Assembly (NCBI GenBank): GCA_002104935.1
Contig: MCGT01000002.1
Location: forward strand, 806,001-870,000
Origin: Hesseltinella vesiculosa
Taxonomy: Eukaryota; Mucoromycota; Mucoromycetes; Mucorales; Cunninghamellaceae
Direction of reading: 5' to 3'
Length of the DNA: 64,000 nucleotides
The position numbers and the translations under genes were made by a program. Positions 13,501 to 46,012 of the stretch are shown one piece after another. Within the stretch, counting starts at the first letter, position 1, and each line of letters opens with the position of its first letter. The notes below the pieces were generated by a model that saw only the letters and a list, made by a program, of their open reading frames with translations, searched no databases and was not told where the DNA came from.

Positions 13501-14648
13501 TTTTTGCAATGGCTAAGTCCCAGTGTGGGCTGCTGCCGCAAGCAACGAGGCAAGACGCCGCTGACCCTTTGTGGCCCATGGGATGATGATGATCAGTGCG
13601 AGCCTTGCTACCCAGATTGGTCTATCACCGATATGGACAGCTTCCCTCAAGGCTCGACGTTTTTGGACTTGTTCTCCATTTGGATCAACATGGCTCCCGA
13701 CGAAGACTGCCCCCTGGGAGGCAAAGCAGCCTATGGTGATGCTGTGGTGGTCTCGCCCGACTCGATTGACACCTCGCACTTCCGCACCTTCCATACCCCC
13801 TTGCGCTCCCAAAACGATTTCATCCGCGCCTTTGCTGCCAGCCACCGCATTGCCGACGAACTGAGCACCTCGCTTCAGATGCAAGTCTACCCATACTCTG
13901 TATTCTATGTCTTTTTTGAACAGTATGCCGAGATCGTGCCCATGGCTTTCCAGCTCCTGGGCTGTGCTGTCGCTGCGATCTTCTTGGTCACCACGGCTTT
14001 ACTGGGCAGCCTTCGCTGTGGCGCCATTGTCATGCTTGTGGTGGGCATGATCTTGACCGATGTGGTGGGCACCATGGTTCTGTGGGATATTAGCCTGAAT
14101 GCTGTCAGTCTCGTCAATCTGGTGATCTGTGTGGGTATCAGTGTGGAGTTCTGCTGCCATATCGCTCGTGGATTTATGGTCGCCAGCGGCTCACTGCTCT
14201 CACGGTCTCGTCAAAGTCTTCAGGAGGTTGGCAGCTCGGTAATCTCTTTACGCTCAAAAGTGAACGACCGTTTCATTTTTTTTTTTTTTTTCATTAGGTC
14301 TTTTCTGGGATCACGCTGACCAAATTTGCTGGGATTGTGGTATTAGCCTTTACAAGGTCCAAAATCTTTGAAATATATTACTTTAGAATGTGTAAAGTCG
14401 AATGGAAACAGGGAGCGACAGATTCATTTTCTTTGTGTTTTGTAGATTTGTCCATTGTGATCTATGGTGCCTTGCATGGCTTGATCCTGTTACCTGTTTT
14501 GCTTGGCTTAGCGGGTGGCAAAGGCATGTCGATTTTATCTGATTTTGATCAAGAAGGCATCGTGCATCATCAAGGGCTCTTGACGGAGGACAGAGACAGT
14601 TTTGACCAAGTGCTAATCACAGACATGCCCTCGGCCACTCGCCAATGA
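10600..14648 (+). CDS. NCR1: NPC intracellular cholesterol transporter 1 homologue
   Basis: Multi-pass sterol transporter of the late endosome/vacuole membrane that receives sterol from NPC2. Five exons, 10600-12345, 12423-12974, 13042-14238, 14298-14391 and 14446-14648, give 1263 residues, close to human NPC1. A signal peptide is followed by a cysteine-rich N-terminal sterol-binding domain ([30 protein letters not shown]). The sterol-sensing domain spans the second exon ([30 protein letters not shown]). The third exon carries the C-terminal luminal domain and most of the last membrane bundle, ending with [17 protein letters not shown] and [17 protein letters not shown]. No dileucine sorting motif was seen at the C-terminus. 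The first intron contains an A19 run. Confidence 0.96.
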
Positions 14649-27908: not shown

Positions 27909-28804
27909 ATGGGGTCCGCGTATGGTGATAATAAAGCTGTAAGTAAGATGATTGTGGATCAATCAATAGAAAAGAGTTCATCAATAGCTAATCTCCATTA
28001 TACAACTTTTTATTTCTGGGCAAACTAGAAAGATACCGACTTTCGACGGAAATGGGATCGAGAGGAGTATGCTGAACGGGCCAGAAAACGAGAAGAACGT
28101 GAACGATTTGAAGCCATGAATGCCGATCGAAAGAAGCGCGGACTTGCACCATTGAAGGACAAGAATGAGCCAGAACAAGAAAAGACGCTGCTGACCCATC
28201 GTGAGAGCAAGATCTCTTTTGATCACAAGGTGGGCAAAGTCGAGATCGTCAAAGATGCTGGCGAAAAACGCAATCAACCTGGTTTCTACTGTGAGCTCTG
28301 TGATTCAGTCTTCAAGGATAGTAAAGGCTACTTGGACCATGTCAATTCTCGAAAGCGTAAGCAGCAAAGGATGAAGGCGGGAAGAGACAAGGCAATTGAC
28401 GCTTATCTTTTTGACAAGATCAATCCAAGTTGGGTGTGGCAATGAAGGTAGAGCGATCTACTGCCGATCAAGTCAAGGACCGGTTGGCTGAGTTGAAGCG
28501 CAAGAAGATGGAAGGGCCTGATGAAAAGAAAGAATATGGTAAGACGCCATGAAAAAAAAAAAAAAAAAAAAAAAAAACGCCCACCTGTCTCACTGTCCTT
28601 GGTCTTTCCTGTACAGATCTCAACTCCAGGATAGAAGAGCTCAAACAGCAAGAACAGGATGAAAAGGCGCAACGAAAGGAACGGAAGCGGCAAAAGAAAC
28701 AAGAAAAGGAAAAGGAGTCGACGGCTGACCTGCCAGCTACCGAGGACGCAGACGACATGGCCAAAATGATGGGATTCTCCGGCTTTGGCTCTACCAAATC
28801 ATAA
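27909..28804 (+). CDS. SNU23: U4/U6.U5 tri-snRNP protein Snu23 (ZMAT2)
   Basis: Zinc-finger spliceosomal protein of the tri-snRNP/B complex. Four exons, 27909-27938, 28029-28356, 28419-28538 and 28617-28804, give 221 residues. The N-terminal block is DTDFRRKWDREEYAERARKR. A matrin-type finger follows (GFYCELCDSVFKDSKGYLDH, then NSRKHQSKLG), then the conserved VERSTADQVKDRL. The C-terminal third is a Lys/Glu coiled coil ending MMGFSGFGSTKS. The second intron (28357-28418) is read through by a longer open frame, but only splicing restores the finger's second histidine (NSRKH). An A27 run lies in the third intron. Confidence 0.93.
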
Positions 28805-28970: not shown

Positions 28971-29330
28971 TTAGCACCCAGCAGCGTTTATTTGAAGGCA
29001 AGTAGTAGTCATGCAGCGGTTGATTCCAAAAGTTTTAGCAAACGCGATACTCACCTCTCGGTCTGTAGCGTCGCACTGCTTCCTAACAGGCTTTGTTGTT
29101 CGTTGACCGGAGATATCGCCAGGTACGGATTCAAAATCAAACTTTTCGGTCATGCAATAGGTCAAGGCCATTGTTTTTGCACTGTATGTAAATCCAACTT
29201 GATGCGCACTAAAAAAGTCTCTGCAGACTTTGTTTTTGTTTTTGCAGCACGGGTTACCAGAAAATGGTGAAGCTAGGACCGTTGCCAACATATTCACCAA
29301 AAAACCTAAGAAGAGATAATTCAAATGCAT
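28971..29330 (-). CDS. Small secreted eight-cysteine protein, divergent member
   Basis: 119 residues in a single exon. Residues 1-20 form a signal peptide (hydrophobic LFLGFLVNMLATVLA). The mature part has a fixed pattern, CC-x6-C-x22-C-x26-C-x19-C-x4-C-x7-C, ending on the last cysteine. The same spacings occur in the three proteins at 36591, 38529 and 41422. Shared non-cysteine positions include NK in CCxNK, AH after the third cysteine, and KTFGIN before the sixth. The paired and C-terminal cysteines suggest a compact disulfide-bonded extracellular protein. The family is not recognised and the function is unknown. A TATA-like TATAAAAGTG lies upstream, near 29373-29382. Confidence 0.75.
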   Translation of the reverse strand: MHLNYLFLGFLVNMLATVLASPFSGNPCCKNKNKVCRDFFSAHQVGFTYSAKTMALTYCMTEKFDFESVPGDISGQRTTKPVRKQCDATDREVSIAFAKTFGINRCMTTTCLQINAAGC

Positions 29331-31639
29331 TATTGTAGATAATAAAAAGAAATGTCTCGGAAAACCTGCACTTTTATACTAGCACAGACATGAGGTGTTT
29401 CCCCAGATCATGCAGATCTCCCTCATCGAACGTCTCCCTCCTTTTTTTTTTTTTTTTTTTTTGCGCGTAGTTCGCATTGCTCCGAGCCATTTATAAATTA
29501 TCGCTTCCTCGATGTCATTTTGATTTTCACCTTCGATAGGTATTTGATTTTGACTCATAATGTCCTCCCTAGGAACGTATGCTTGAGTTTAATGTTCACA
29601 GGTGACAATAGAGATAAAAAAAAAAGAGAAAAGCGTGGGTGGGTCAGGATTAGCAGCATACATGACGCCACTGCCAAAACGGAAATTCATGTATCAAATC
29701 GATCATTCCCAGGTACAAGGCAGTAAAAATCATTTCGTGCAGTTGCCCACGTTTACCTCAAACGCAGCCAGCTTTTACCAAAAAAACCAGGGGATACTCC
29801 CTTTAAATGTAACGTGACATTTGATCTGCACATCTAGGAGACGTGTACTTTCACTGATAATCATCCTTCAGCGAGATTAGCCGGTGGAAGTTCAGCTGTA
29901 GATATGATAAACATGGGATGGAATTACTAGAAAACCTACCTCCAGAGATCCACATCAAATTTGTCAGGAAGCTGGCCCTTATTGAGTAACGGCCATAGCT
30001 AGAAAGATACACCTGACAGCATTGAAGTAAGTGAACATGACCAGAATTTTTAGTCGCTTTTTTAGAGTAGCTTTCTGATGCCATGATGGCGAACGCAAAA
30101 GTGGTCGGTTAGCTTTCTAGAAACTTAATTTCTTGATGGGTTGAGTATAGAGATCTGTGGGCATCGATCAAAGAGGTCACTTTCAAAACAAATCGGCTAT
30201 GCTCATATGTCGTCAGATGGCAGGCGTTCTAAAACCTCAATAACATTTCCTATTAGAATTGGGGATAGCATGGTCAACTTGATATCCTCAGAGAACTTCG
30301 ACAGAAAAACCCAGGTTGTGGTCATGGAGACCCTGGTATTCCTTAGTGATGACCATTTCCATGGGACCACATTTGGAAGTAAATATGACCATTTTAATGA
30401 ACTTTTTTTTTTATATTTTTGCTCAAAGTTTTATCTTGATTGCTTGTCTCATTCGTGAGCCTTTGCTTCACAGAAAAAGAAATATACACACGCCGGGGGA
30501 AAATCACGGTGCCGTCATCACAATATCGCACGTTTTGTGTTCTCATAAATCGCGTGCGTGAAGACCTATATGCTGTGATATCGATAGCCCAAAGAGAGTG
30601 TCCCACGAAATTGGTGCTCAGGGTTATTATTTTTTTTTTTTTGGATGTCATGTGCTGACAACCTTCGATGCGACGTGGTAGTAAAAAATAGTTGGACTTG
30701 CGGAAATCCGGCCTACCTCTCTCTTTCTCTCTTTTGTATTTATTGACTCAAGACAAAGAGAATGGAACCTTGGAGTTTGTAAAAATGACTGCAATCGCCA
30801 ACAATTTTTTTTGAGGTCGATGTAATGCACTCGCAATGCAAAAAATGGTGCCAAATGTTGTGGCATAAGAACTAATGATATAACTAAAAGCTGATGTATC
30901 AGGCCAGAAAATTTATTTGTCGACAGCGTACGAACTAGGAAGAACAGAAGAGGCTATGGCAGGAGCTTTGTTGGTGAAAGATACATCAAGTAGGATGGAA
31001 GAACAAGAATTTGTGGGTGATTGAGGTGAGATTGCAGTGGATCAATGAAGCAGTTACCAACGAGAATAATTTCAAGCCCAGCGTAAGCTTTTTTTTGTGG
31101 TCAGCCCGTTTTCGTGTTTCTTAACTCTTTTTGTTTTTCCTAATCGCACCACGACACCATAGTGCTGCTGTTCACCAGTTTAGGGCCACTGCACGAAGAA
31201 CAAGTTGAAGATTTGAAGAATAAGACTGTGATGTACCAGGTGCGAACCTTCAGAAACATTAAACTCATTTTAACATTTATTTATTTATTTATTTTTGCTA
31301 GTTATTCAACGCTAACGTACATGAAAAGCAAGGATCATGATAATGAGAAAACGGCTTCTCGATGAAAAGATGAGAAACAAAGGGCATGACAAATTCGAAC
31401 AGCAGAAGCACATGCCAAGTCCTCTAATCAAGGAAACTGGTGCCCCGCCTGCTGCCGAACCACCTAGCATCCCTGAGACTGGCAACATATGCCCTTCTAG
31501 ATCTTGAAAAATTCGTCAAGTAGGTCGACATGGTGGATCGCGAACAAGGATGTAAAGCTGGGCACTCAACCGATTTCTTTAATTTTATATAGCCGTGAGG
31601 AGAACAACTTGTCCACCTCCTGCTTCTGACCACAGGTGA
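29331..31639. other. Accessory stretch with unassigned ORF fragments
   Basis: About 2.3 kb without a recognisable gene. Protein-like pieces occur but do not join. Minus strand: frame about 30207-30371 (SMTTTWVFLSKFSEDIKL, stop) and about 29940-30000 (LWPLLNKGQLPDKFDVDLW). Plus strand: an exon-like piece at 31163-31239 (LLFTSLGPLHEEQVEDLKNK). A 40-nt block at 30824-30863 recurs at 31963-32002 with two mismatches. A (TTTA)n run lies at about 31272-31292. Probably decayed mobile or duplicated DNA. Confidence 0.35.
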
Positions 31640-34480
31640 CCTCTACCCAACTGATCTGGAATGCTGCCATCTTTGGTCCAAAATGTCATCACCAGCCACA
31701 ATGAATCCAACCAAACTGGGTGATTGCATCAAATCCGTGCTTCAAAGCTATCACAAGCTGGCCCATTTTTTATGCCGAATGCCTCCTCCGCTTCGTTTCT
31801 CAAATTTCCGTGGTCGCCAACGTACTGACAATGAATAATGTCCATCTTGTTGTCAAGTGGAAGCAAATACTCGTCGGTGGAACAGTCCCAGCCGTCTCAG
31901 CCGCTCACCCCTACGGATGGTTTCGTACAACACGACCAAGAAAGAGATTCCCCTTCATCGTCAATGCACTCGCAATGCAAAAAATGGTACAAAATGTTGT
32001 GGAGAGACACGCTGCCTCTGCCAACTTCCTACCGTCGGTTCCAGGTCAAGCTAGCCGGGCAACGTCCGGTGACGACACAACAATCTGCACCATTACCGGC
32101 GTCTTTCTCTTTGGCCACGCCCCTGGTTTCGCCAATCACACCTGATGGTGTTGCCATTGTCTTCATTGCTCCCGTTACGAATCCTCCAATATCGCCGTTA
32201 TCATTCAAGGAAACCTCCCTGTGCATCGCGTTCGGAAGTCAGTTGAGCCCAACCACCAGTTCAATCACAATCTCCGGGTTCCGTTCAGCAGCCAACGTTT
32301 GCGATCGCCATAAGAAGCAGCTATGCTTCGGCTGCTGTTGGTCCAGCTGATCTGTACCAACCGCCTGTTCCAATTACTCCACCTGCAACCTAGCGCCCTC
32401 CCTGTCACACCACGCAACACATCTCCCAGCGCCACGGTCCAGAATGTGCCTTGCCTGATCAATCAGCTTTGTCAGCCCGATGGAGACCAAACCCTTCACC
32501 CAGTCAACGGTAACTTCTTCTTTTGAAAAGTTATTCGCCAGTCCACTAAAACCGTTCTTTTTTATTATTATTATTTTGTATAGCGTGCCCAGCAAATGGC
32601 GAAAATCTCCTCATCAATCGACACCAAATGTGCTCTGGGAGGTTGACATTAAAAACGCGTAGTCGCTGTGGTACCCAAGCCTACTGTTTGGGCTCTACAA
32701 CGCACCCCCAGCATTTCAAGCCATGATGAATTCCACCCTTGCCAAGTGTGTGTTGGTGTATCTGGGCGACATATTGATTTACGGCAAAGACATGGACGAA
32801 CATCAACGACCAAAAAAAAAAAAAAAAAGCAACGCTTGCCTTTTTCGGTGCTCGTCGAAATCCACGGCTGGACTTTTTACGCAGGTGTGGACACCGGCGC
32901 GACTCTCTCAGTCATCATTTCGTCACTGGTGCGGCGCCTTGGGTCTGGCTGTCGGCGGCAACACGCACTTTACGGTGTAAAATTTGGACCAATCCTCAAC
33001 CAACCCTGGAGGACTGAGCCTAACGAGTCTGGCTACCAACGGCCAGAAAATATGCCTGTGCAAGACCGTGGTGTTATCAATGACAGAAATCGTTCTCTAA
33101 TGGGAATAATACCCATTCGACCCAAGGTTGTGCCTCGTCTGCAACTTGTCTACCAAGGCAAAGACGATCCCAAAGTCGACCCCACGCTAAAACTCTACGA
33201 AAACATGAATACCTACAGGTACATGATCAGTGAACTGAGGAGAGCCCTCTCGATGCCAAGATAGCTTACTTTTGGCAACACAGCAACCATGAACCAGGCA
33301 GTAACGAAAATTTAGCATCGGCGCCACTAAGCAAACAAGACAGGCGCATTCTGATGGATTTGGTCGATAGTGATGATCTATTATTATTGGGCATGTCATG
33401 GCTACAACGGTGCCCTTGGACGGTGGGAGCACTCAGAACATCATTAGCAAGGCTATGGCTAAATGACTGGGATACAAACAAGTCGAAAAAAAGGCACAAG
33501 CAATATACGATAATCAATGGCCGCGTGCGAGGGTGAAGGGTCCTGGGCCTATCGCAACCATCCCACTCACCGATGGAAATCCTGCTGCCTCAACCACCCC
33601 ACCCACCGATGGAAACCCTGCTGCCTCAATCGCAGGGAAACCTTACCGAATCACATGGGAGCAAGATGATGTGCTGAGGTCCACCCTAAATGACCTGCTA
33701 GCTCAAAAACTGGTTCGACCGTCCCAAGGATTGTATGCAGCCCCAGTTATTTTCATAGTGTCATTGTTGCACTTTGTTGCCAGCTGCTACTGAAACACCG
33801 CTCATTCCCCAAATTTCCTCCAACGTCGGTACATCCCCCTCTGGACACTGATCTAGTAGAAGAAGAGGATGATCCTAACGACGACGATGGCCCGTTAGAC
33901 TACTTGTACGAGCTAGACACGTTAGTGATTCACACCACCGATTGGCCCCTATATTACCTTTACGACAAGTCAATGGTGCCTTCTAACAATCCAACGACTG
34001 TGTGAGAGGATGAATCAGACCCTGGTGAATGTGTTGGCTAAGTTATTGCGAGCAAGTAAAATCACCCACGACCGTTGGGATGAATTTTTGGAAGAAGCCC
34101 TTTTTGCTATACGCACCAGCCCCAACGCCTCCACTGGTCAAACCCCCTCAATGATGCTCTATGGTTATGAGATGCGCTAGCCGGCCATCTGGAAACCCCC
34201 TGCTCAAGATTTTATTGAAGGAGAGTTTGAAGAAGAAGTCGCTAATCGTGTGGCACACATCGTGGATTCAGTCAGCCGACTGAGGCAAGAAGCACGGCTC
34301 AAGGCCATCCAAGAGCAAAAGGAAAAACGTGCAAGATACGACAAGACGGTGCAATTTCGACGGCCGTTTGAGATTGGTGAACAGGTCCTGCTGAAGATAG
34401 AAAATCCCCAGGACAAATTTGCTGATCGCTGGCGTGGCCCCTTTTTTGTCAGAACACGCTCGGAGAGCCCACCACTGCCC
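31640..34480 (+). mobile_element. Degenerate Ty3/gypsy retrotransposon, rearranged
   Basis: Pieces of a gypsy polyprotein in the wrong order and broken by stops. A possible gag-like region lies at 31640-32350. An RT palm piece is at 32669-32815 (LLFGLYNAPPAFQAMMN, LVYLGDILIYGK), where YLGD replaces the catalytic YxDD. An A16 run follows. The aspartic protease is at about 32833-32990 (FYAGVDTGATLSVI). The RT N-terminal region is at 33629-33765 (LAQKLVRPSQGLYAAPV). The integrase C-terminal half is at 34005-34480 (LRASKITHDRWDEFLEEALF, TGQTPSMMLYGYEMR, then stop TAG at 34178). No LTRs were identified. It cannot be active. Confidence 0.8.
33568..33640 (+). repeat. Two-copy 36-bp tandem repeat in gypsy remnant
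   Basis: The block beginning CACCGATGGAAA starts at 33568 and again at 33604. It is in frame, encoding a Thr-Asp-Gly-Asn-Pro-Ala-Ala-Ser unit twice, just before the RT N-terminal motif. Confidence 0.6.
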
Positions 34481-34514
34481 AGGTTGAATTCAATTTCCGC
34501 TCTTTCTTTTTAAA

Positions 34515-35735
34515 CCCAAAGGCGAGCCCATTGGGCTTCGGTGTTCGACTCCTCCCCTTTCATCCCTCATAATGTAGTGACCTCGATCCACCGCAATATA
34601 ATTTCCATCAACCGTGAATCCTCCCTCTTCCCACCTACTTAATGTAGTCGTTCTCTCCCCAACTCCTGTCATAGCCTCTTCAGTCGCTTTTGTTCGTACG
34701 CTGTCGTCAAATAAAATTTTTGGTCGGATACAGACCTCAAAAAAAAAAAAAAATCTTTAAACCCAACTCGTCCAAGATTGGCCGGCCCTCTCCTGATGCA
34801 AGGCATTTTCCTCTGGCTCCCTGGTCCCCAACTGGCTCTCCGTCCCCGCTCCCTCTTCCCCTTTCCCAATATCGCGCAGTCCCTTTGGTCTATCCTGGCT
34901 CCACCTGCCGGTCTCCCTCCTCCTTTCCTTCACCCCTCCATACTTCCCTATTGCTTCCCCTCTTGGGCTATCAGTAGACACCCTCCAACCGTGCTCTTCA
35001 ACCTTGTCGAATACTCCTGGCTGGACGTCCTTTCCCAAGCCTCATTCCTCGACAAAGATCACATCCTCTCCTCTCGCCGCCTCCGATCTTTCATCGGCAA
35101 TCCTCACCTTACACTGTGGCGCCACCCCTTTCTTCCCCAGCCCCTCCATTCTGGGTGCGATTCTGGTCGGCCCCGATGCTCCACCTTGGCCGTACTGTCC
35201 TCTATCGCTATACCAAAGGGAAGATTTACCACAGCTCCCTTCTCCACCGCGTTTTCCCGTCCTCCCACTGCTCACCGCCATGGGCTCTCTCCCCCACTTC
35301 TTCTTCACCTGCCCCCATCGTGCAACAGTTTGGATAGAATGCTGGAAGTTGATCTTTGATGTTCCCTCCCCCTCTCTTGACGGCATTCAAGCTTCGGTCC
35401 TGTCCTTTAATTGGCCTCCTCTCAACACTCATCTGATGGCTGTCCCACCTTCCCTGATCGTCAGCACAATTATAGTCTCTCTCTGGCGAGCCCACTGGGC
35501 GACAATTTTCGACTCCTCCCCCTTCTTCCCACATTGCGTAGTATCGTCCATAACACGTAACATATCTACCCTCTTACTCGAATTCTCCTCCCTCTCACCA
35601 TCCTAAACGACGGCTCTCCCACCATCCTCCCTGTTACGACCTCTTTAGCCAGTCTCGCTTTGTTAAACGTCATCGGCAAATATTTTTTTTGGTCTGACCT
35701 GATTGATCTCAATTTTTTTTTTAAACCCAACTCTT
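34515..35735 (+). mobile_element. Two LINE (non-LTR) 3' ends in tandem
   Basis: 34515-34752 and about 35480-35735 share the block GGCGAGCCCA(T/C)TGGGC, then TTCGACTCCTCCCC, a (A/T)GTAGT tract and a TTTTTGGTC end, followed by an A or T run. Between them, 34755-35610 codes in broken frames for the C-terminal region of a LINE ORF2, including the zinc-knuckle-like PHFFFTCPHRATVWIECWKL and FWVRFWSAPMLHLGRTVLYR. Frameshift near 35270. Both copies are inactive remnants. Confidence 0.6.
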
Positions 35736-35974
35736 TTTTTGGGTCTCCCACCCTTTTTCTCTTTGTCTCTTTTTTTATTATTGTTCTTCGCGCATTTTCT
35801 TTTTTTTTCTCAATTTGATAAGGAAGGCACCGAAAGGGATTCGGTAGGCTGTTTCATTCTTTCACCATGTTTATACATACATTCTAACAAATGATTATCT
35901 CAAAAGAAAGGTGTCTAATATTGTATTTAAAGAAGACAGCCAGAACAGTAGCAAAAGAAGAGGGGCAGCCTGCG
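35736..35974. other. T-rich spacer, nothing seen
   Basis: Short T-rich interval between LINE and gypsy remnants, without a supportable feature. Confidence 0.4.
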
Positions 35975-36305
35975 CACGTGCATGGATTACCGTAAGCTAA
36001 AAGGGGTGACCATCAAGGACTCATTTCCGCACCACATATCGACGATATAATAGATGCCCTGGGTGACGCTACAATAATCTCGACCTTAGGTGTCGTGTTG
36101 GGTTTTTGGCAGGTGCCAATGGATCTCGCTGAGTTCGCTGACTGGGTTCACTACCAAATATGGCACTTGTGAAATTTTTTTGGTCATAAACGGCGGTGTA
36201 CGTTCACTCCTTGATTGACTTGCGATTACAAAGTTCGCTATCGGTGCGACGTGGACCTGGAACGCAAACTCCCGCTGATTGCCTATCCCAGTTGGCGGAA
36301 ATCAA
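35975..36305 (+). mobile_element. Second Ty3/gypsy RT and RNase H remnant
   Basis: RT fingers/palm in two frames. MDYRKLKGVTIKDSF precedes a frameshift. IDDIIDALGDATIISTL and GFWQVPMDLAE follow, then a TTKYGT block. After a gap, VRRGPGTQTPADCLSQLAE (36244-36303) matches the end of a gypsy RNase H/connection region. It may belong to the same decayed element as 31640-34480, split by the LINE pieces. Confidence 0.65.
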
Positions 36306-36590
36306 GCGACATGATTTTTTTTTTCTTTTTTTTTTTTTTTCAGGAACGAATCTACTCGACTTGCTGTTGACCATTGTACAATCGGCAGTTGCGTACCGAA
36401 GCCCAATATTGATCGATTGTCCTCAGTATGTGCATACTGCTGATTTCCGGGGAGAAATAGCTGTGATTAAGAGTGCTGGTCATCAAGAACATGGTATCAG
36501 AAAGAAACATCGGCAAGCTCTGCGCTAGTCTCGTGGAGGAGAAAAAAAAAGCAAAACAAGAGTACCCGCGGAAGTGACAGGGTTTATTTC

Positions 36591-37007
36591 TTAGCATCCA
36601 ATGTCGTTACGCTGATTGCAGCGACCATTTTCTTTACACAAATTAATACCAAAGGTGTTTGAAAACGTTTTGACCAGCTTAATTTCTTCAGCGTTGCAAG
36701 GTGCGTCGAAGTCTTGCAGAACATGACCAAGGCCATATCTAGTTTCCACATACTTCTGTATTTTTCTGTTTGGTATACACCAAGCCAAATCGTCATCATT
36801 TGCTGTAATATAACCAAATGTAATTTTGTGGGCTTGACGGAACCGTTCACACGCGAAGTTTTTGTTTGGGCAACATCCTCTGCCAGTAATGGATTCGATT
36901 GGACCAAAAGGACCAGTACGCTTTCTTAGGGCTGCGTTTGTCACAGCTTCTACAGATAGTGCCATCACCACCAACAGCAGCAAACCGACATATTGCTTCA
37001 AATACAT
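36591..37007 (-). CDS. Small secreted eight-cysteine protein, copy A
   Basis: 138 residues, single exon. The signal peptide is VGLLLLVVMALSVEA, and a variable Gly/Pro-containing linker follows. The mature cysteine pattern CC-x6-C-x23-C-x26-C-x19-C-x5-C-x7-C ends on Cys at the stop. Its core GRGCCPNKNFAC, IPNRKIQKYVET, GLGHVLQDFDAPC and NTFGINLC is closely related to copies B (38529) and C (41422). TATAAATAT on the minus strand (37066-37074) lies about 60 nt before the ATG, next to a T tract and TTTGAGCAAA. The gene sits at one edge of a duplicated unit; its 3' flank is cut by a gypsy remnant. The function is unknown; secretion is inferred from the signal peptide. Confidence 0.85.
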   Translation of the reverse strand: MYLKQYVGLLLLVVMALSVEAVTNAALRKRTGPFGPIESITGRGCCPNKNFACERFRQAHKITFGYITANDDDLAWCIPNRKIQKYVETRYGLGHVLQDFDAPCNAEEIKLVKTFSNTFGINLCKENGRCNQRNDIGC

Positions 37008-37065
37008 AATTTTCAGAATTAATTTTTCAGTTTTTCAGTTTTTTTTTTTTGCTCAAATCCAATCC

Positions 37066-37074
37066 ATATTTATA
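37066..37074 (-). promoter_or_regulatory. TATA box of secreted protein copy A
   Basis: TATAAATAT on the minus strand, 59-67 nt upstream of the start codon. The surrounding 40 bp are almost identical to those before copy B. Confidence 0.6.
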
Positions 37075-38528
37075 GGTCCATTTTAAGCTTTTGACGATCA
37101 TTCCCGTCCCTTCCCTCGGATGGAACCCAGAATTTAAAAAATTTAATCATATTCCCGCAGCTTTGGACTTCAGGATCTGCCAGGCAAACCATATCCATCG
37201 AAGTGCTCGTCGAATGCAAGCAGTAAAAAAGTCAGCTAGGAGAGAATCGAATGTGATTGGCAATCAATAGTTAATCACCGAGTAACGTCTCCTTTGCAGC
37301 AGAGAGTGAACCACTCCCGTCAGACCCTGGCAAGAAGAAAAAAAAAGGTGCATGGGATTGGCGTCATGCAGAGAATACAGAACTGAAAAAAAAAAGGTCA
37401 TGCAAGGTGCGGCATCCTTGGCTATGAGTGTACCATGGCTGCAACAGATTGTCGTTGGTTATGTCATCTGGTACCAAAAGATCAGCGGCTGCACAGTGCA
37501 GATGAATTGTGTATCGACGGTCGATCTCAGCGTCTGCATTTCCATCTGGTCCCCCCCCCCCCGAGTAACCAAGTCCTTCCTTGCCATTTTCTTGCGCAGA
37601 GAAAAAAAAAAAAAGAAGACCAAGTTTTGTCAGTGTCACAATGCCCCTTGATGGAGTCGCAGCTCTTTTTTTCTCCATTGTTTTCTGGTGCCTTCCCTTA
37701 TTTCTTACACATGCGAGAAAATAATAGGTGCTCCGCCACAATGACGGGCAAGAGTGTAAAGTCAGATCAGCAGCACGAGCATGTCCTCAATTCAATACCA
37801 ATGCACTGGTCCATTTCCCTCATTTTTTGTCGCCGCAACATGTTTTTGGTTGCGCCGTAGAAAAAAAGAAACCCAACATCCTGACAACGCATGTGCATGG
37901 TGTAAAAAAAAAGTAGCCCGTGTCGGATTTTCAAATACATATTTCTGTGGTTGAGGCAAAGGGGAAAGAAAATTGAAAATGGTTGGATTTTGGCAGTGAG
38001 ACATAGGTTGTGACTACGGCCTAAAGCACTGCTCTGTCTGCGCAGCATAGGTTGGCAAGCGTGGTCAGTGCGAACCCCAGCCGTTGTTTGGCAGTGTTGT
38101 TCGTACACTACTAGATTTGTACCGCGTGTTCTAGGAGGGTTCTGTTTTTAGCCATGGTTGCTGCTCATCCATTATTACTTGCGTGAAGAGTTTAGAGCGA
38201 ATCGGTAGAATCGGACTTTCTAGTGATTTTTCTGGGTCAAACCCTGAACCCTAAACCCTAAACCCTACATCATCTCTTTTGAGCGATTTGCTCGATTGGT
38301 AGCAATCGCCCGGCCAGCTGCCACCGCTTTAATTTTGGGTGACTACATTCCCCAGCCAAAAAATGATAAAACCACAGGGAACCATCCGCCTACAAAGCCG
38401 ACGAAAGTGGCCGCAGTGTGCAGTGCAGTAGCACCTGAGTTTTAAAAACCAATCAAACTAAAGCTGTTGATTTTCGGTGAGGAGAAAAGTAAAGCACGAG
38501 TTTCCACAAAGGATTTTTTTTTTATTTC
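37075..38528. repeat. Duplicated upstream unit of copy A, with spacer
   Basis: From about 37035 to 38110 this aligns by eye with 38985-40160. Examples are the blocks near 37420-37560 and 39415-39560, and 37740-37860 and 39720-39845. No gene is conserved in frame between the two, so it looks like duplicated promoter and flank. 38110-38528 is not repeated in that unit; it contains a telomere-like tract (38239-38267). Confidence 0.6.
38239..38267 (+). repeat. Interstitial telomere-like (AAACCCT)4 tract
   Basis: Four heptamers in a row, AAACCCT, GAACCCT, AAACCCT, AAACCCT, one with a single mismatch. This is the TTTAGGG-type telomere unit read on the C-rich strand. It sits between two duplicated secreted-protein units. 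Confidence 0.7.
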
Positions 38529-38951
38529 TTAGCATCCAACGTCGCTACGTTGAAGACAGCGACCAGGTTTACACAAATTAATATCAAAAGTTTTTGAAAA
38601 CGCTTCCACCAATGCAATTTCTTTAGCGTTGCAAGGGGCGTTGACGTCTTGCAGAACATGAGTGAGACCGTGTTCAGTTTCCGTATACTTCTGTTCTTTT
38701 CGGTTTGGTACACACGTAGTCAATTTGGTTGACTTTACGGTAATATAAACAAATTTGATGTTGTGGGCTTGAAGGAACTGTTTACATGCGTAGCGTTTGT
38801 TAGGGCAGCAACCTCTGCCAGTAACGGCCCCAATCCCGCCTAAGGGACCTGCGGCAGGAGGCGGTTTAGCTGTAGCTGCATTCGTCACCGCTTCCACGGA
38901 TAGTGCCATCACCACCAACAGTAGCAAACCGACATATTGTTTCAAGAGCAT
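38529..38951 (-). CDS. Small secreted eight-cysteine protein, copy B
   Basis: 140 residues, single exon. The signal peptide VGLLLLVVMALSVEA is identical to copy A, followed by an Ala/Pro/Gly linker. The cysteine pattern is CC-x6-C-x23-C-x26-C-x19-C-x4-C-x7-C with a terminal Cys. Key blocks are GRGCCPNKRYACKQFLQAHN, VPNRKEQKYTET and KTFDINLC. ATG 38951 is chosen because it places the signal peptide at the N-terminus; the open frame runs further upstream through promoter sequence. TATA box at 39009-39017 (minus). The start-to-start distance to copy A is about 1.94 kb, a tandem duplication. Confidence 0.85.
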   Translation of the reverse strand: MLLKQYVGLLLLVVMALSVEAVTNAATAKPPPAAGPLGGIGAVTGRGCCPNKRYACKQFLQAHNIKFVYITVKSTKLTTCVPNRKEQKYTETEHGLTHVLQDVNAPCNAKEIALVEAFSKTFDINLCKPGRCLQRSDVGC

Positions 38952-39008
38952 ATTATCAGAATTAATTTTTCTGTAGTTTTTTTTTTTTTTTTTGCTCAAA
39001 TCCAATCC

Positions 39009-39017
39009 ATATTTATA
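39009..39017 (-). promoter_or_regulatory. TATA box of secreted protein copy B
   Basis: TATAAATAT on the minus strand, 58-66 nt before the ATG, within about 100 bp of near identity to the copy A promoter. Confidence 0.6.
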
Positions 39018-40186
39018 GGTCCATTTTAAGCTTTTGACGATCATTCCCGTCCCTTCCCTCGGATGGAACCCAAAATTTAAAAAATTTAATCGTCTTCCCG
39101 CAGCTTTTGCACTTGCGTTCAGACTGGATGTCCGTCGAAATGCACTTCGAATGCAAGCAGAAAAAAAACAGCAGGGAGAGAATCGAATGTGATCGGCAAT
39201 CATGAGCACACGGCAACTCAAATGTTAACCACAGAGCAAATGTGGGTCAGTCCTTTCTTACAGCAGTAACCATTCACCCATTGAGCCACATCTTTTCTCA
39301 AATAATCAGCTTACCACGAAAGAGCAGCGTAACCCTCGCACCACCGTCAGACCCCAGCAAGAAGAAAAAAAACGTGCAGGGGAAATAAGTGGCCACGCGT
39401 AGTGGGCCATCCTTGACTATGATCGTACGGTGTCTGCAGCAGCTTGTCGTTGCAATTTCATTGGCCACCAAAAGATCAGCAGCTGCACAGTGCTGATGAA
39501 AATGTTATCGACGGTCGCTCTCAGCGTCTGCATGCTCGTCTGGGGGTTTCCCGTGAAATCAAGTCCTCCCTGGCCATCTTCTTGCATTTACAAAAAAAAA
39601 AAAAGAACAACAAGCTTTGCCAGTGTCACAATGCCCCTTGACGGAGTCGCTGCTCTTTTTTCGCCCCTCGCGTTCTGGTGCCTCGAGTCATTTCTTACCT
39701 GTGAGAAAATAAAACCGCTCCACAGCTCAAGACGCGCAAGAGTTGTAAAGTCAGGCAGCACGGACCTGCCCTCAATTCAATGCCAATACACCGGGTCATT
39801 TCCCTCTTTCGTTACTGCTACGGCATGTTTTTAGCTACGCTGTGACCCATCTGATCGGGTAAAAAAAGCAGCGCCAAGTGATGTACAAAAAAAAGGAGAA
39901 AGTATCGGAATTTCAATCTCGTTTCTCTTTTTTTTTTTTTAAAAAAAAAAGTTTCTCTGTGGTCGAGGCAAAAGTGAGAAAAAAGAATTTTGTGCGTCCG
40001 ATCGCGATTCGAAAGATGGAAAGGGTTGGTTTTTGGCGCTTGGCTATAGTGAAAGACATTCTGGGTGGCAACACAGTGAGGTTGTGGTGACAGCATAAAG
40101 AACTACGCTGTCTGTGCTGCTTAGGCCGGTAAGCATCGTCAGTGAAAGCTTGCTTGGCAGTGTTTGTTCGTATGCCTCTGGATGCT

Positions 40187-40415
40187 AATGAGTGATCCAT
40201 CAAGGCTTAAATTTTAGCCATCATCATCACTTATCACCTACTGTCACCATGCCAAATGTGAAGATGATCGGAGGAGCTTTTTTTTTTTTTTTTTTTCAAA
40301 AAAAGTAAACAGCCCCATCTCGTCAATGAGTGATCCATCGAGACTAAGAGTTTTACCAAGGTCATCACATATCACCTACTATCATCATGTCAAATTTGAA
40401 GGCGATCGGAGGAGA
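40187..40415 (+). repeat. Two-copy direct repeat, about 90 bp each
   Basis: Both copies begin AATGAGTGATCCATC, contain TATCACCTACT and end GATCGGAGGAG. They start at 40187 and 40325 and are separated by an A/T-rich filler with a T17 run. Confidence 0.7.
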
Positions 40416-40492
40416 TCGATTTTGGCTTGATTCAGCACCTCGATTTTTGGCTGTAGAACGCTTTTTTTCTGGTTTGTGTCGTTTTTGACAGT

Positions 40493-40590
40493 TTTTTAGC
40501 TGGGGGAGCGGAGGTTGGAATTCGTGATTCTCCAAACTTTGGCTGGGCAACCTTGCTCAATCGATGTGGTTTTTTCAGCATCATTAGTGT
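40493..40590 (+). repeat. Dispersed repeat, copy 4
   Basis: TTTTTTAGCTGGGGGAGC, then CCAAACTTTGGCTGGGCAAC, CTCAATCGATG and TTTTTTCAGCATCAT occur in the shared order. The following 150 bp share weaker blocks with the region after copy 2. Confidence 0.5.
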
Positions 40591-41421
40591 ATGTCATTGG
40601 CGATATCTACACAAAAAATTAGTTGGATCCATCAGTTCAAAGCCGATCTATCACGGTTTGTTGATTTTTCAACATCCCTGAGGGTCCCCTGGCCATTTTT
40701 GAACGAAAGCATAGGGAGCCTAAATGTGCGCCAAAAATAAATTCTCCACCGATCGTCACCGGATTTTGCAGGGCACTAGTATATGATATGCAATGTTCAT
40801 GGTCAAGGTATCAGTCCTCTACTGTAACTTTCTGGCGAGCTACAGCTGCATAAAACCTTGCCTACTGCCTGCATTTGATTCCCAGTGAAGCCAGCTTAAA
40901 AAAATAAATCAATTAAAAACCCGCATACATGCTTTCGATTCACAGGGAAGCCATTCCACCCAGTTGTCCTACTCTCTAGATCACCATCCATCCTCGGGGA
41001 AAATGGTCATTGATGAAAAAAAGAACGCTTCAAATCCCTTTGGGCTAATGGATCAAGCTGAAAATGGACTCGAATGCATAAACCCATGAGGGTCGATGTT
41101 GTCGGGAGTATCAGGTCGATAGGTTGCGATCTCCCGGCTAACTCTTATCAATGTCATTTAGGAATGCCCAGATCTCCCAGCCGAAAAATGAAAAAAAATC
41201 ACGGGGAACTGACCGCCTACAAAGTCGACCAAAAATGCTAGTAAAATCAAACCAATCATGAACCGCCCTCTGGGACAAACTGGTAAAGAATGATGGGCAT
41301 GACAGGTTGATGGCAGGGATGCGCCGTAGTACCCGAGCTTTAAAAGAAAACCAAACGCTGTGGGTTTTTGGTGAGCAGAAAAAGTGAAGCACAAATGTTC
41401 TCGAAAGAAAACGTTTATTTC

Positions 41422-41808
41422 TTAACATCCAATGTTGTTACGTTGAAGACAGTGCTTTCCTGCTTCTTTACACATATTAATATCAAAGGTTTTTGAAAAC
41501 GTGTTCACCAATGCAATTTCTTCAACATTGCAAGGGGCGTCGACGTCTTGCAGAACATGGTTAAGGCCGTACTCAGTTTCCACATACTTTTGCGTTTTTC
41601 TGTTTGGTATGCATGTAGCCAAATGTTTACTCATGGCTGATACAAAAACAAATTCAATCTTGTGGGCTTCCAGGAACTGCTTACACGCGAAGCGTTTGTT
41701 TGGGCAACAGCCGCTGCCGAAGGCGCTTTGCTTAGCTGGCGTCTCAGCTTCCACCGATAGTGCCATCACCACCAACAGTAACAAACCAAAAAATTTCTTC
41801 ATATGCAT
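41422..41808 (-). CDS. Small secreted eight-cysteine protein, copy C
   Basis: 128 residues, single exon. The signal peptide is FFGLLLLVVMALSVEA and the linker is shorter than in copies A and B. Pattern CC-x6-C-x23-C-x26-C-x19-C-x6-C-x7-C, ending on Cys. Key blocks are GCCPNKRFACKQFLEAHKIE, IPNRKTQKYVETEYGLNH, VLQDVDAPC and KTFDINMC. An ATA-type box (ATAAATAT, 41862-41869 minus) lies 54 nt upstream of the ATG behind the same TTTGAGCAAA block. ATG 41808 is followed by a second in-frame ATG at 41802; either keeps the signal peptide. The flanks on both sides resemble copy B, so the duplication includes regulatory DNA. Confidence 0.85.
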   Translation of the reverse strand: MHMKKFFGLLLLVVMALSVEAETPAKQSAFGSGCCPNKRFACKQFLEAHKIEFVFVSAMSKHLATCIPNRKTQKYVETEYGLNHVLQDVDAPCNVEEIALVNTFSKTFDINMCKEAGKHCLQRNNIGC

Positions 41809-41861
41809 GTGAACAGAGGTGATTTATTTTTTTTTCCTTTTTTTTTGCTCAAATGGAAACC

Positions 41862-41869
41862 ATATTTAT
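41862..41869 (-). promoter_or_regulatory. TATA-like box of secreted protein copy C
   Basis: ATAAATAT on the minus strand, 54-61 nt before the ATG, in the position equivalent to the TATA boxes of copies A and B. Confidence 0.5.
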
Positions 41870-43289
41870 GCGCATTTGACGATCCTTCCCCGTCCCTCCT
41901 TCGGTCGGAGCCCTAAAGAAAAAGGGTGGGATCGTCTTCACCTTCTGCACATTACGAAGATTTTTTCATGCAGGCAAGAGAATGGAATGGGATGTGTCAT
42001 TGGCGGCTGACGGCAAATCAAGCGTGAAATCACCCGTAAGTCTGAGTCAGCCATTTTCTGCAGCAGTAACATAAGTCTCTACCCACTGGGCTAGACAAGC
42101 AGCTTCCAATAGAGTTTACCACAAATGAGCCACGGCTTTCTCCATTGATCGACTTACCATGAAAGAGCAGCGTCTCCTTTGCATCGGAAAATGAATCGCC
42201 GCCGTCAGACAAGAAGGAAAAAAAAGTGCACGGGATTGGCGTCATGCAGAGAATGCAGACGACAAAAAAAAAAGAAAGGTCATGGGAGGTGCATCCTTGG
42301 CTACGAGGAGGCATGCAACAGCTTGTTGTTTGTCATCGGTTTCCAGATGATCAGCAGCTGCACAATGTCGATGAATAATGCTATCGGCTGACGATCTCAG
42401 CGCCACCCTCATTTTTGGTTTTCTACTAGCAGCCCAAGTCCTCCCTGATCTTCTTGCAATACCCCCCCTAAAAAAAGTACGACGAACTTTGTCAGTGTCA
42501 CGACCTCCCTGGACGGAGTTTTCCTTTGTATCATATCTCTAAGAAAAAAAAAAGTCGCCTCTTCTCTTGGAGGCATAGCAGTATGAGATTAACACCCTGA
42601 GCGTGGGTCTTCCCACTTCTTTATGACCGTTGTCAACGCACCAGATCCTTTCCCTGACTCGCCACTTCTCTCCTGCTACCTGCTACCGTTGTGAACCTGT
42701 GTTTGGTTGCAACATGATCACCTTGCTTTAGGGCAAAGGAAAAAAGGGCCGTGCTACGGGAGCGCAGCTGCAACTACGCCATCTGCATGTCTACCACCAA
42801 AGATCAGGGACTTTTCAGCTGAGTGCAGAAACTCTTGAAGGGTGGCGATGAAGCTGAAAAAAAAAATCAAGTCGTTCGGTGAGAAGGCTATCCAGCCAAC
42901 GTGTCATTGTTGTTCGTGTTGAGACCGTCAGTCTCTCAGCTACCAACCCACATGAAAGCAAAGGTGAAGAAACAAAAGGTGAAGGCACAAGGATCTTAGT
43001 CAACAGGCTATCGTCAGGCTAGGTGCAGCTCCCCACGCCGATGTTCAAACGCCGCGTCAAACGGAAGCAGATCGCTCCGCTGATTTTTTTTTTTTTTTTT
43101 TTTTTGCGTCATCGTTGCGCATCCCTGTTAAAGGAGAAAAAGGCTACTAGGCGATGTAAAAAATCCACATGCAGGTCGTTTTGTGCAAGTTTGCGATGAT
43201 TCCCATGAACTACCTAGCATCTTTCCACAGCGAGGGTTACAAAAGAGGAGGAGACGAAGCATGGGGAGATTTTTTTCATGCCAGTCAAA
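41870..43289. other. Duplicated flank of copy C and unassigned spacer
   Basis: About 41870-42500 aligns in blocks with the copy A and B upstream units, including the poly-A-adjacent GTGCA(T/C)GGGATTGGCGTCATGCAGAGAAT block near 42225. It carries a tRNA-like box A on the minus strand (42083-42093). 42500-43289 shows no recognisable gene; a T23 run lies at 43083-43105. Confidence 0.45.
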
Positions 43290-43752
43290 ATGCAACTGTA
43301 GTTTCCTGGGAACTTGTTGGTAGTGCTGATTGTACTTTTGGAAAGCGTTTATGCTAGTGGTAAAAGGTCATCCTCTTCCGGCTCTCATACGACCTCGCCA
43401 TTGAATATCTTTGGCAAGGTACCTCATGGAGAACGTTGCTGTGCTAACAAACAGCGTCTGTGTGCCAGCTTTAGGGGGCCCATAAAATTTGGTTTGCTAA
43501 CAGTACCGGTACAATACCAATGCAAATGTCATTGCCACGTGTCAAACGAGGAGGCATAGCATTTTTACCAATCTCACTGATATAGCTCATGCAAACGTAG
43601 AGAAGAAAACCTACGAGTATTTCAGCGACAACGACCGTCAGATCCTCACCGAATTTTACAAGACATTTGACATCATGGCTTGTTCTGAAGCTATCTTCCG
43701 TGAATCAAATGTCATGGGTGCTGATACAAAAAAAGCCAATTCACTTGGATAA
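43290..43752 (+). pseudogene. Broken copy of the eight-cysteine secreted protein gene
   Basis: Opposite orientation to the other copies. The aligned start ATG at 43290 is followed by TAG as the fourth codon, where copies A-C have lysine. Past it the signal-peptide-like LLVVLIVLLESVYA and ERCCANKQRLCASF, with the CC-x6-C pattern, are still readable. The frame stops at 43557-43559. The second half survives in another frame (RQILTEFYKTFDIMAC), matching the KTFDI-x2-C block of the family. A GT-AG intron joining the halves in phase was looked for and not found. A first exon further upstream cannot be fully excluded. Confidence 0.6.
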
Positions 43753-43895: not shown

Positions 43896-46012
43896 TTACT
43901 GTTCAGAGGGTGGGCGTGAAGAGGGGAGATGGGGAAAGGCGATGGCGGGAGTGATGGGATGCAGGAGGGTGGGGTTGAGGAGGGCGGAGGAGGAGGCGGC
44001 AGAGTCGATGGCCGAGTACTTTGTGGTGATTTTCTTGAGCACGTAAGGCAGGGACTTCCAAGGAAAGACCTTGACGTCCTTTTCAATGTTACGGGGTTTG
44101 GGGATAGGAAAGGACATGACAAGTTTGAAGAAGTCGGAGGTGTCAGGGCGCGACTTGCTGACGGTGATGGGGTGAAAGCCTTCAAGATTGCGGCGCACAC
44201 GGTTTTTCTCGTCGACGGTGAAACGGGTCTCCAACAGGCTTTCCAGCAGATGGATGCAGTCGACGGAGGTGATGAAGTAGTCGTCACGCTCAACCCAGTA
44301 AATGCAGGACACGACGGTGGAGGAGCTATCGTCGGGAGCGTGATGTGCCGTGATAGGACTGTGGGCCAAGGGAGGAGGGCTGGCGGTGGTGATGGTCGAG
44401 GTAGTTGCATGGGACCTGGCGTGTTGATGATCGGCCGTGGCAGATGAGGAAGCATGGGCCGATTCAGTTGGGGACTGGTCTTCGGCAAGGGGATGGGGAA
44501 GCACGTTGTAAAAAGTACAGAGGAGCTTGTTGTGGACGAGGTCGTGGCGGAAGCGGACAAGTCGACGGCCGTTGCGCCATTCCATGGGCTGCCAGTCTTG
44601 GGTCATGGTGTCGAGGTCACCGATGACTTGCAGATGGATATGGCAGGTCATGCCTGGGTAAGGGTGGTAGTTTTCGATGGGTGTAGAAGGAAGATAAACA
44701 CCTGACTTGTCGACCATGTAAGTCGAGGTGCGAGAGTGAGTGATGTGTCGTGGGTTGGCGCCTACAGCAGGGGCGGATTTCCGACGATGGAGTGGTTTCA
44801 CAGAGTGTGAGGTCGATGGGTCGGAGGGCAGAAGCAGCGGTCCCAAGGACGGAGGGTAGACACCAGAAAAGCCAGCAGGAGGCTGGGGCGTCAGAGGCAG
44901 TCTTGAATAAGCTGAAGAAGTGGGGAAACAGTGGATGAGATAGAAAAAAAAAAAAGCGAGACGAGGCTTACGAGAAAAAGAGGAAGGCCAGACTTGGGGT
45001 AGGGCTTGATAGTCCCGGGCCTGGAAGAAAGGAGAAGATCCATAGAGGATGTCGGTCGAAGGCTGACTGACGGGCGGATCAACGTCTGGTTCCAGTGAAG
45101 CAGTAAAAGAGCCTTGAGTATCTGAGACGCAGGGCAAAGAGGTGACAATGGAGGGTGGGTATTGAGGGTGGGATGGGGATTTCCAATGGAGGTTAGGTGA
45201 GTCGGGTGAGGTGGGACGGGGCAGATCGATGTCAATGGTGAAGGTGGCTACTGGGAACGAGGTGCGCACCACGTCGGGGTTTTCCACCAAGCAGACATGG
45301 ACCGGGACATGGACAGAGGTGGATTTGGTGTCAACTAAGGAGGGAACCGTTGCCACCAAGGTTAAAAAGGGGCCATGGATGTCAGCACGGGTGTCAACCA
45401 TCAGAGCATTGAAAGCGATTTTGGGCGTGCAGTGATCAAGGCTAATGTTTTTCATGGTGATACAGACCGTGGTTCCAGGAGGGCCGGCAGCAGGTTCCAT
45501 GCGTTTGATGGGATCATCCGAGCCTTGGGCTTCATGTAGACTGGTAGACAACAGGTCTTCTCCCAGCAAGTTCTTCCATTTGTAGAAAGACGGGTCTAAT
45601 AAAAAATCATATCCTGCCATTAGTGTGTTTTTCTTTTTATAAATCATAGCAGCCTACCGTTTTCAGTAGGTGTAGGTGGATGCAAACCTGTTTTGGTTTT
45701 AGATAAAACGCAAGTAAGAACGATTTGTGGTGAAAAAAAAAAAGGCACTTTTCCGTTGCTTTTCAAAACTGAAACCTGTTCTTGAGGATCCTCTTTACCT
45801 TGCATGATCGTTTCTGGATTTGTTTTCATAGAATGGCCCAAAGAAGATGTCAGCCAACAGTAGGAAAAAAAGGAAAAAAAAAAAGTGAAAGAAAAGAACA
45901 GAAAAAAAAAAAGGCCAGAAAGAAAAGCAAAATAAGCATGGAATAGCGTTAATATTATATAAAAAAAACCTGCTTGATCTGGTCCGATGGCCGTGCGTTT
46001 TTTTTTTGCCAT
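43896..46012 (-). CDS. Medusa (MedA)-like developmental regulator, DUF7082 type
   Basis: Nuclear regulator related to Aspergillus MedA / Neurospora acon-3, which control sporulation and adhesion (family knowledge). Five exons: 45970-46012, 45799-45813, 45658-45687, 44972-45595, 43896-44911, giving 575 residues. The diagnostic C-terminal domain has CIYWVERDDYFITSVDCIHL, FTVDEKNRVRRNLEGFHPIT and then PRNIEKDVKVFPWKSLP. Upstream is an IPT/TIG-like segment starting MEPAAGPPGTTVCITMKN, and a Ser/Thr/His-rich middle. The 5' end is less certain: it needs a 156-nt first intron with donor GTTTTT and a 15-nt exon. A start inside the last 5' intron (45620) is possible but skips the acceptor logic. Target genes are unknown. 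Confidence 0.75.

Follow-up and report, generated by a model that had tools for sequence, protein, structure and literature searches.

We analyzed a 64,000-nucleotide stretch of the Hesseltinella vesiculosa genome (contig MCGT01000002.1, positions 806,001 to 870,000; hereafter the window), in which a cluster of genes codes for small, leader-bearing proteins with eight cysteines. All coordinates are positions in this 64-kb window. Four members are intact and all lie on the minus strand: A28 (28971-29330; 119 amino acids), with a hydrophobic leader and then the eight-cysteine domain; B36 (36591-37007; 138 amino acids), with a linker of ~23 residues containing one KR pair between leader and domain; C38 (38529-38951; 140 amino acids), also with a linker; and D41 (41422-41808; 128 amino acids), in which the linker is short. 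A longer, mechanically called open reading frame (ORF) extends C38 to 39221, initiating at TTG, and this is probably not the true gene start. An earlier reading of the DNA from its letters (the sequence-only reading) had placed four intact genes here, and the ORFs lie where it put them, each ending in a cysteine and a stop codon and sharing the framework CC-x6-C-x22/23-C-x26-C-x19-C-x4-6-C-x7-C. Cysteine spacings that were described as identical prove to be nearly so (0-6-22-26-19-4-7 in A28, 0-6-23-26-19-5-7 in B36, 0-6-23-26-19-4-7 in C38, and 0-6-23-26-19-6-7 in D41), the variation being confined to the third gap, of 22 or 23 residues, and the sixth, of 4 to 6. A fifth, broken gene was also credited with the framework, but this plus-strand remnant (43290-43752) has frame changes that include one within the domain, lost cysteines, and a leader frame interrupted by a stop. 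Two separate open pieces of it match a profile of the four genes (expectation value [E], 7.6e-5 and 0.06, among 2476 frame pieces from the six frames of the window), and because cysteines five, seven, and eight are missing from the later piece, the whole framework is not encoded there.

The four genes form a real homologous family. Their contig, C12 in the assembly analyzed, is 1,513,655 bases long. With C38 as the query against the 27.05-Mb genome (85 contigs), the other three members are found with E-values of 3.4e-56, 7.7e-47, and 7.5e-11, and since these are all 7.5e-11 or better, the likeness is beyond chance; queries with A28 and B36 return the same four places and no further ones at E up to 10. 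A28 is the divergent member, with 31-34% identity to B36, C38, and D41. The C38 domain has 96 positions, and at 23 of these, including eight cysteines, all four proteins carry the same residue; Cys, Phe, or Gly account for 14 of the 23, and N7, K8, H19, N81, and Q90 are also invariant in the four mature parts. A hydrophobic stretch opens each protein (peak 11-residue Kyte-Doolittle value of 2.25-3.17, with 1.51 or less afterwards), and by reading, V-x-A occupies positions -3/-1 of a putative cleavage site in all four; judging by this leader, the members are probably secreted. By this approximation to signal-peptide prediction, the failure in every member that would have told against the sequence-only reading did not appear. 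The eight cysteines, being invariant, presumably form four disulfides. The proteins are small and exceed the cysteine threshold (at least 5%) quoted in an excerpt of PMC8596622, with eight cysteines per 98-119 mature residues (6.7-8.2%), and the mature parts are basic (isoelectric point, 8.2-9.2).

The sequence-only reading knew of no named family with this framework, and that claim survived searches of Pfam, NCBIfam, solved-structure sequences, solved folds (among the best matches listed), and a collection of 5.8 billion proteins, none of which produced a significant match to a characterized family. None of the four proteins scores above the cut-off of any Pfam or NCBIfam model; CFEM, Hce2, and the other Pfam cysteine-rich families are unmatched, and the sole listing, for one protein of the four, is DUF2871, whose 14.9 bits (E, 0.033) fall short of the 27.4 required. 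The best match among solved-structure sequences is a hydrophobin at chance level (E, 0.82), and the A28 domain alone gives nothing there at E up to 10. A word-based search of the 5.8 billion proteins, which depends on shared five-residue words, scored 843 candidates and returned only B36 and A28 themselves (as P0001 and P0002, respectively) at E up to 1. Neither C38 nor D41 was among the proteins found, though both are intact and close to B36, and the database is therefore probably without such genes where annotation missed them. The protein encoded by a neighboring DUF7082 gene has 356 relatives in the same database, many from Mucorales and Mortierella, in a search that, like that for a neighboring F-box protein, scored only the ~8000 candidates sharing most words; because the database is rich in proteins of these fungi, the absence of relatives of the family carries some weight. 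By sequence comparison, neither the framework nor the sequence is represented in the libraries searched, and the family is best explained as lineage-restricted, in a Mucoromycota fungus of the order Mucorales.

Structure prediction with AlphaFold2 gave a best model for C38 with a predicted local distance difference test score (pLDDT) of 86.4 and a predicted template modeling score (pTM) of 0.72, and one for A28 with a pLDDT of 82.6 and a pTM of 0.69; the two proteins share 33% sequence identity. Both best models have the element order alpha-beta-beta-beta-beta-alpha-beta-beta, provided that the single long strand that DSSP assigns in the middle of A28 is counted as a hairpin. Written out, the C38 model is (short beta)-alpha-beta4-alpha-beta2, its first strand having two residues only, and the A28 model is alpha-beta-hairpin-beta-alpha-beta2, without that first short strand. 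This order resembles that of the two-helix alpha/beta-sandwich killer toxins (KP4 and SMKT), and the SCOP entry for yeast killer toxins presumably has the same one. The proposal of the sequence-only reading that the fold is constrained and the surface variable is compatible with the agreement of the two models in element order and with the selection estimates for B36, C38, and D41 given below, although the C38 model is confident in only one of five.

B36, C38, and D41 are tandem duplicates, upstream DNA included. On the minus strand, the duplicated unit around B36 (36583-37825) comprises the gene and ~800 bases upstream, and it is matched in pieces by the unit around C38 (38455-39809; 36583-37266 and 38521-39202 are 80% identical, and 37407-37825 and 39402-39809 are 78% identical). 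The unit around D41 (41348-42402) is 77-82% identical in pieces to both, including 77% between 41348-41718 and 38455-38819. Searching the genome with 37010-37830 gave five matches, every one inside the cluster. In the 100 bases upstream of the ATG, B36 and C38 are 93% identical, B36 and D41 74%, and C38 and D41 76%; the first four 100-base blocks of the B36 and C38 coding regions, in contrast to the 93% just upstream, are only 72-80% identical. A strict TATA pattern is present in three of the four promoters examined, as TATAAAT at -67 in B36 and -66 in C38 and as TATAAAA beginning 48 bases before the ATG in A28, and is absent from that of D41. Third-position guanine-cytosine content is 0.39-0.47 in the family genes versus 0.57-0.65 in three neighboring ORFs.

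Whole-gene ratios of nonsynonymous to synonymous substitution rates (dN/dS; Nei-Gojobori) are 0.41 for B36-C38, 0.41 for B36-D41, and 0.33 for C38-D41, and from the CC onward they are 0.63, 0.40, and 0.31. Nonsynonymous changes between B36 and C38 affect 2 of 49 sites in the leader and ~46 of 221 in the domain (Fisher p, 0.004, uncorrected for three tests), and no difference between leader and domain is seen for B36-D41 (p, 0.31) or C38-D41 (p, 0.52). These ratios and pairwise results suggest purifying selection on the proteins; a mature part evolving faster than its leader, seen in one pair of three, is only hinted at.

The sequence-only reading placed the genes in a transposon-rich island, and this holds in part. 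Reverse-transcriptase RNase H domains lie at 49.3-50.1 kb, and a decayed retrotransposon remnant with partial copies elsewhere lies between A28 and B36 (32668-33793, plus strand), with a protease-like match that is below the cut-off and a reverse-transcriptase-like frame seen by eye. Part of the remnant (33629-33753) has 12 copies elsewhere at 74-75% identity, some at contig ends. The four contig ends that were read carry retrotransposon-like protease and reverse-transcriptase frames, Ty3/Gypsy pol-like by eye, and so the contigs probably break at this element. The adjoining 75-base stretch at 33555-33629 encodes a TDGNPAAS-type repeat and has counterparts (83-96%) in tandem arrays of contigs C67 and C24 and at one site on contig C10. 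A further segment, 34690-35700, is probably another mobile element; it has one 83% partner on contig C36 (the last 306 bases), weaker matching pieces are spread over ten more contigs, and two of its ORFs match nothing in Pfam.

Adjoining the decayed fifth member is a single long ORF with DUF7082 (43896-45647), whose relatives include one named Medusa, a developmental regulator; the best 120 of the 356 are led by Halteromyces, Cunninghamella, Backusella, Parasitella, Mucor, and Absidia. The neighboring F-box protein has one relative besides itself, in Absidia cylindrospora (36%). At 10600-14319 lies a Niemann-Pick C1 homologue, of which the ORF at 10600-12405 encodes the N-terminal and middle luminal domains; by reading, the ORFs up to 14319 probably continue it after introns. 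The window also has 22 runs of at least 15 A or T, such as 28552-28577 and 43084-43105.

Small, basic, cysteine-rich, secreted, and duplicated fungal proteins serve as antimicrobials, killer toxins, effectors, and surface proteins. Private or orphan secreted cysteine-rich families are common in fungal genomes, and for this reason the claim we make is a modest one. We tentatively favor, at somewhat less than even chance, a lineage-restricted family of secreted, disulfide-rich proteins that act in extracellular antagonism. An early split, which we take to be old, would have separated A28 from the branch of B36, C38, and D41, with later tandem duplications giving these three, each with its own upstream region. 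Each protein would be made with a signal peptide and a short, nonconserved linker, leaving as its mature part a domain of ~95 residues built from several strands and two helices, held by the eight invariant cysteines. This basic extracellular protein may bind the wall or membrane of competing microbes, with a mode of action like that of the two-helix alpha/beta-sandwich killer toxins, and copy number and variation could be maintained by arms-race selection. Examples of small secreted fungal proteins of these kinds appear in excerpts of PMC13211469, PMC9506348, and PMC8596622; PMC13211469 assigns an alpha/beta-sandwich structure to the solved killer toxins apart from WmKT, and according to PMC9506348, KP4-like genes of Fusarium graminearum are upregulated when it meets a fungal competitor. 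Several results weigh against the antagonism explanation: only one of the five C38 models is confident; the C38 and A28 models have no good structural match among solved folds, in the best 50 of 164 and best 50 of 243 Foldseek matches and in 10 and 13 VIA entries; KP4, SMKT, and Zt-KP4-1 are absent from those same matches and entries; and the Kp4 profile (PF09044) is unlisted at E up to 10 for the four proteins and has no match genome-wide at the same limit. These absences bear also on an overlapping and rather improbable alternative, that the proteins are true members of the KP4/SMKT alpha/beta-sandwich fold whose sequence similarity has been lost. The element order of both models speaks for such membership, but KP4 has ten cysteines in five disulfides rather than eight, and an internal alpha-beta repeat at offset 59 ranks only 18th of 1431 windows.

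The effector, defense, or signal roles suggested by the sequence-only reading are, like our own ranking, inferred; we place antagonism first, then surface or spore coat and host effector, then enzyme or inhibitor. It is unlikely that the proteins form a coat on hyphae or spores that adjusts attachment or surface properties, a role played in other fungi by hydrophobins, cerato-platanins, and HFS proteins: local duplicates with similar upstream regions could fit dosage or stage-specific coats, but the cysteine order CC-C-C-C-C-C-C is neither the C-CC-C-C-CC-C of hydrophobins nor the C-CXXXC-C-C-C-C-C of HFS hyphosphere proteins of Pezizomycotina, as an excerpt of PMC8596622 gives them. The mature parts are, moreover, basic and have no strongly hydrophobic stretch beyond the leader, and the hydrophobin match noted above is at chance. 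Effectors secreted on meeting an animal, plant, or fungal host or partner, and acting on it, seem to us no more probable than a coat. Small size, a leader, cysteines, duplication, a decayed copy, and nearby retroelements are usual effector traits and all are present here, but they also occur in saprotroph families, and no pointer to a host is seen within the window. It is very unlikely that the proteins serve ordinary nutrition as secreted enzymes or protease inhibitors; the invariant N7, K8, H19, N81, and Q90 could serve binding or catalysis, but the predominance of Cys, Phe, and Gly among the invariant positions is typical of folding constraint, and no such family reaches its cut-off in Pfam or NCBIfam.

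If the family does act in antagonism, it would provide a new scaffold alongside the few known from Mucorales, and to our knowledge very few protein toxins of this size have been described in early-diverging fungi; the four natural variants in one cluster would also make structure-function work straightforward. The larger proposal, that the family founds both a new disulfide-stabilized fold and a class of secreted antagonism proteins that is new and limited to a single early-diverging fungal branch, is distinctly unlikely. Surface proteins would instead bear on how hydrophobins are replaced in Mucorales, a group that is said to lack them. The cluster may also illustrate that genes of this kind are readily overlooked in annotation: the public protein search did not return two intact members of the four.

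The family resembles fungal small secreted cysteine-rich proteins in its leader, length below 300 amino acids, mature cysteine content, duplication, and lack of relatives found elsewhere, although its framework is absent from every library searched. With hydrophobins it shares a length of ~100 residues, eight cysteines, a leader, and a fungal source, but their doublets stand elsewhere, and the basic proteins described here have no strong hydrophobic stretch after the leader. HFS proteins are likewise secreted and duplicated with eight cysteines, but here CC comes first and the domain is ~95 residues, unlike the HFS order and the HFS length of 219-280 residues given for Trichoderma guizhouense in an excerpt of PMC8596622. 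The KP4 (PF09044)/SMKT superfamily differs in matching neither by profile nor by structure among the best Foldseek matches and VIA entries, and KP4 itself also in cysteine number. The element order of both models is nonetheless compatible with the KP4/SMKT fold. Like that superfamily, the proteins are small, leader-bearing, and presumably disulfide-rich, the models showing two helices and a number of strands, and their genes are clustered as are the KP4-like genes of Fusarium verticillioides, for which an excerpt of PMC9506348 describes a three-gene cluster of 3.4 kb.
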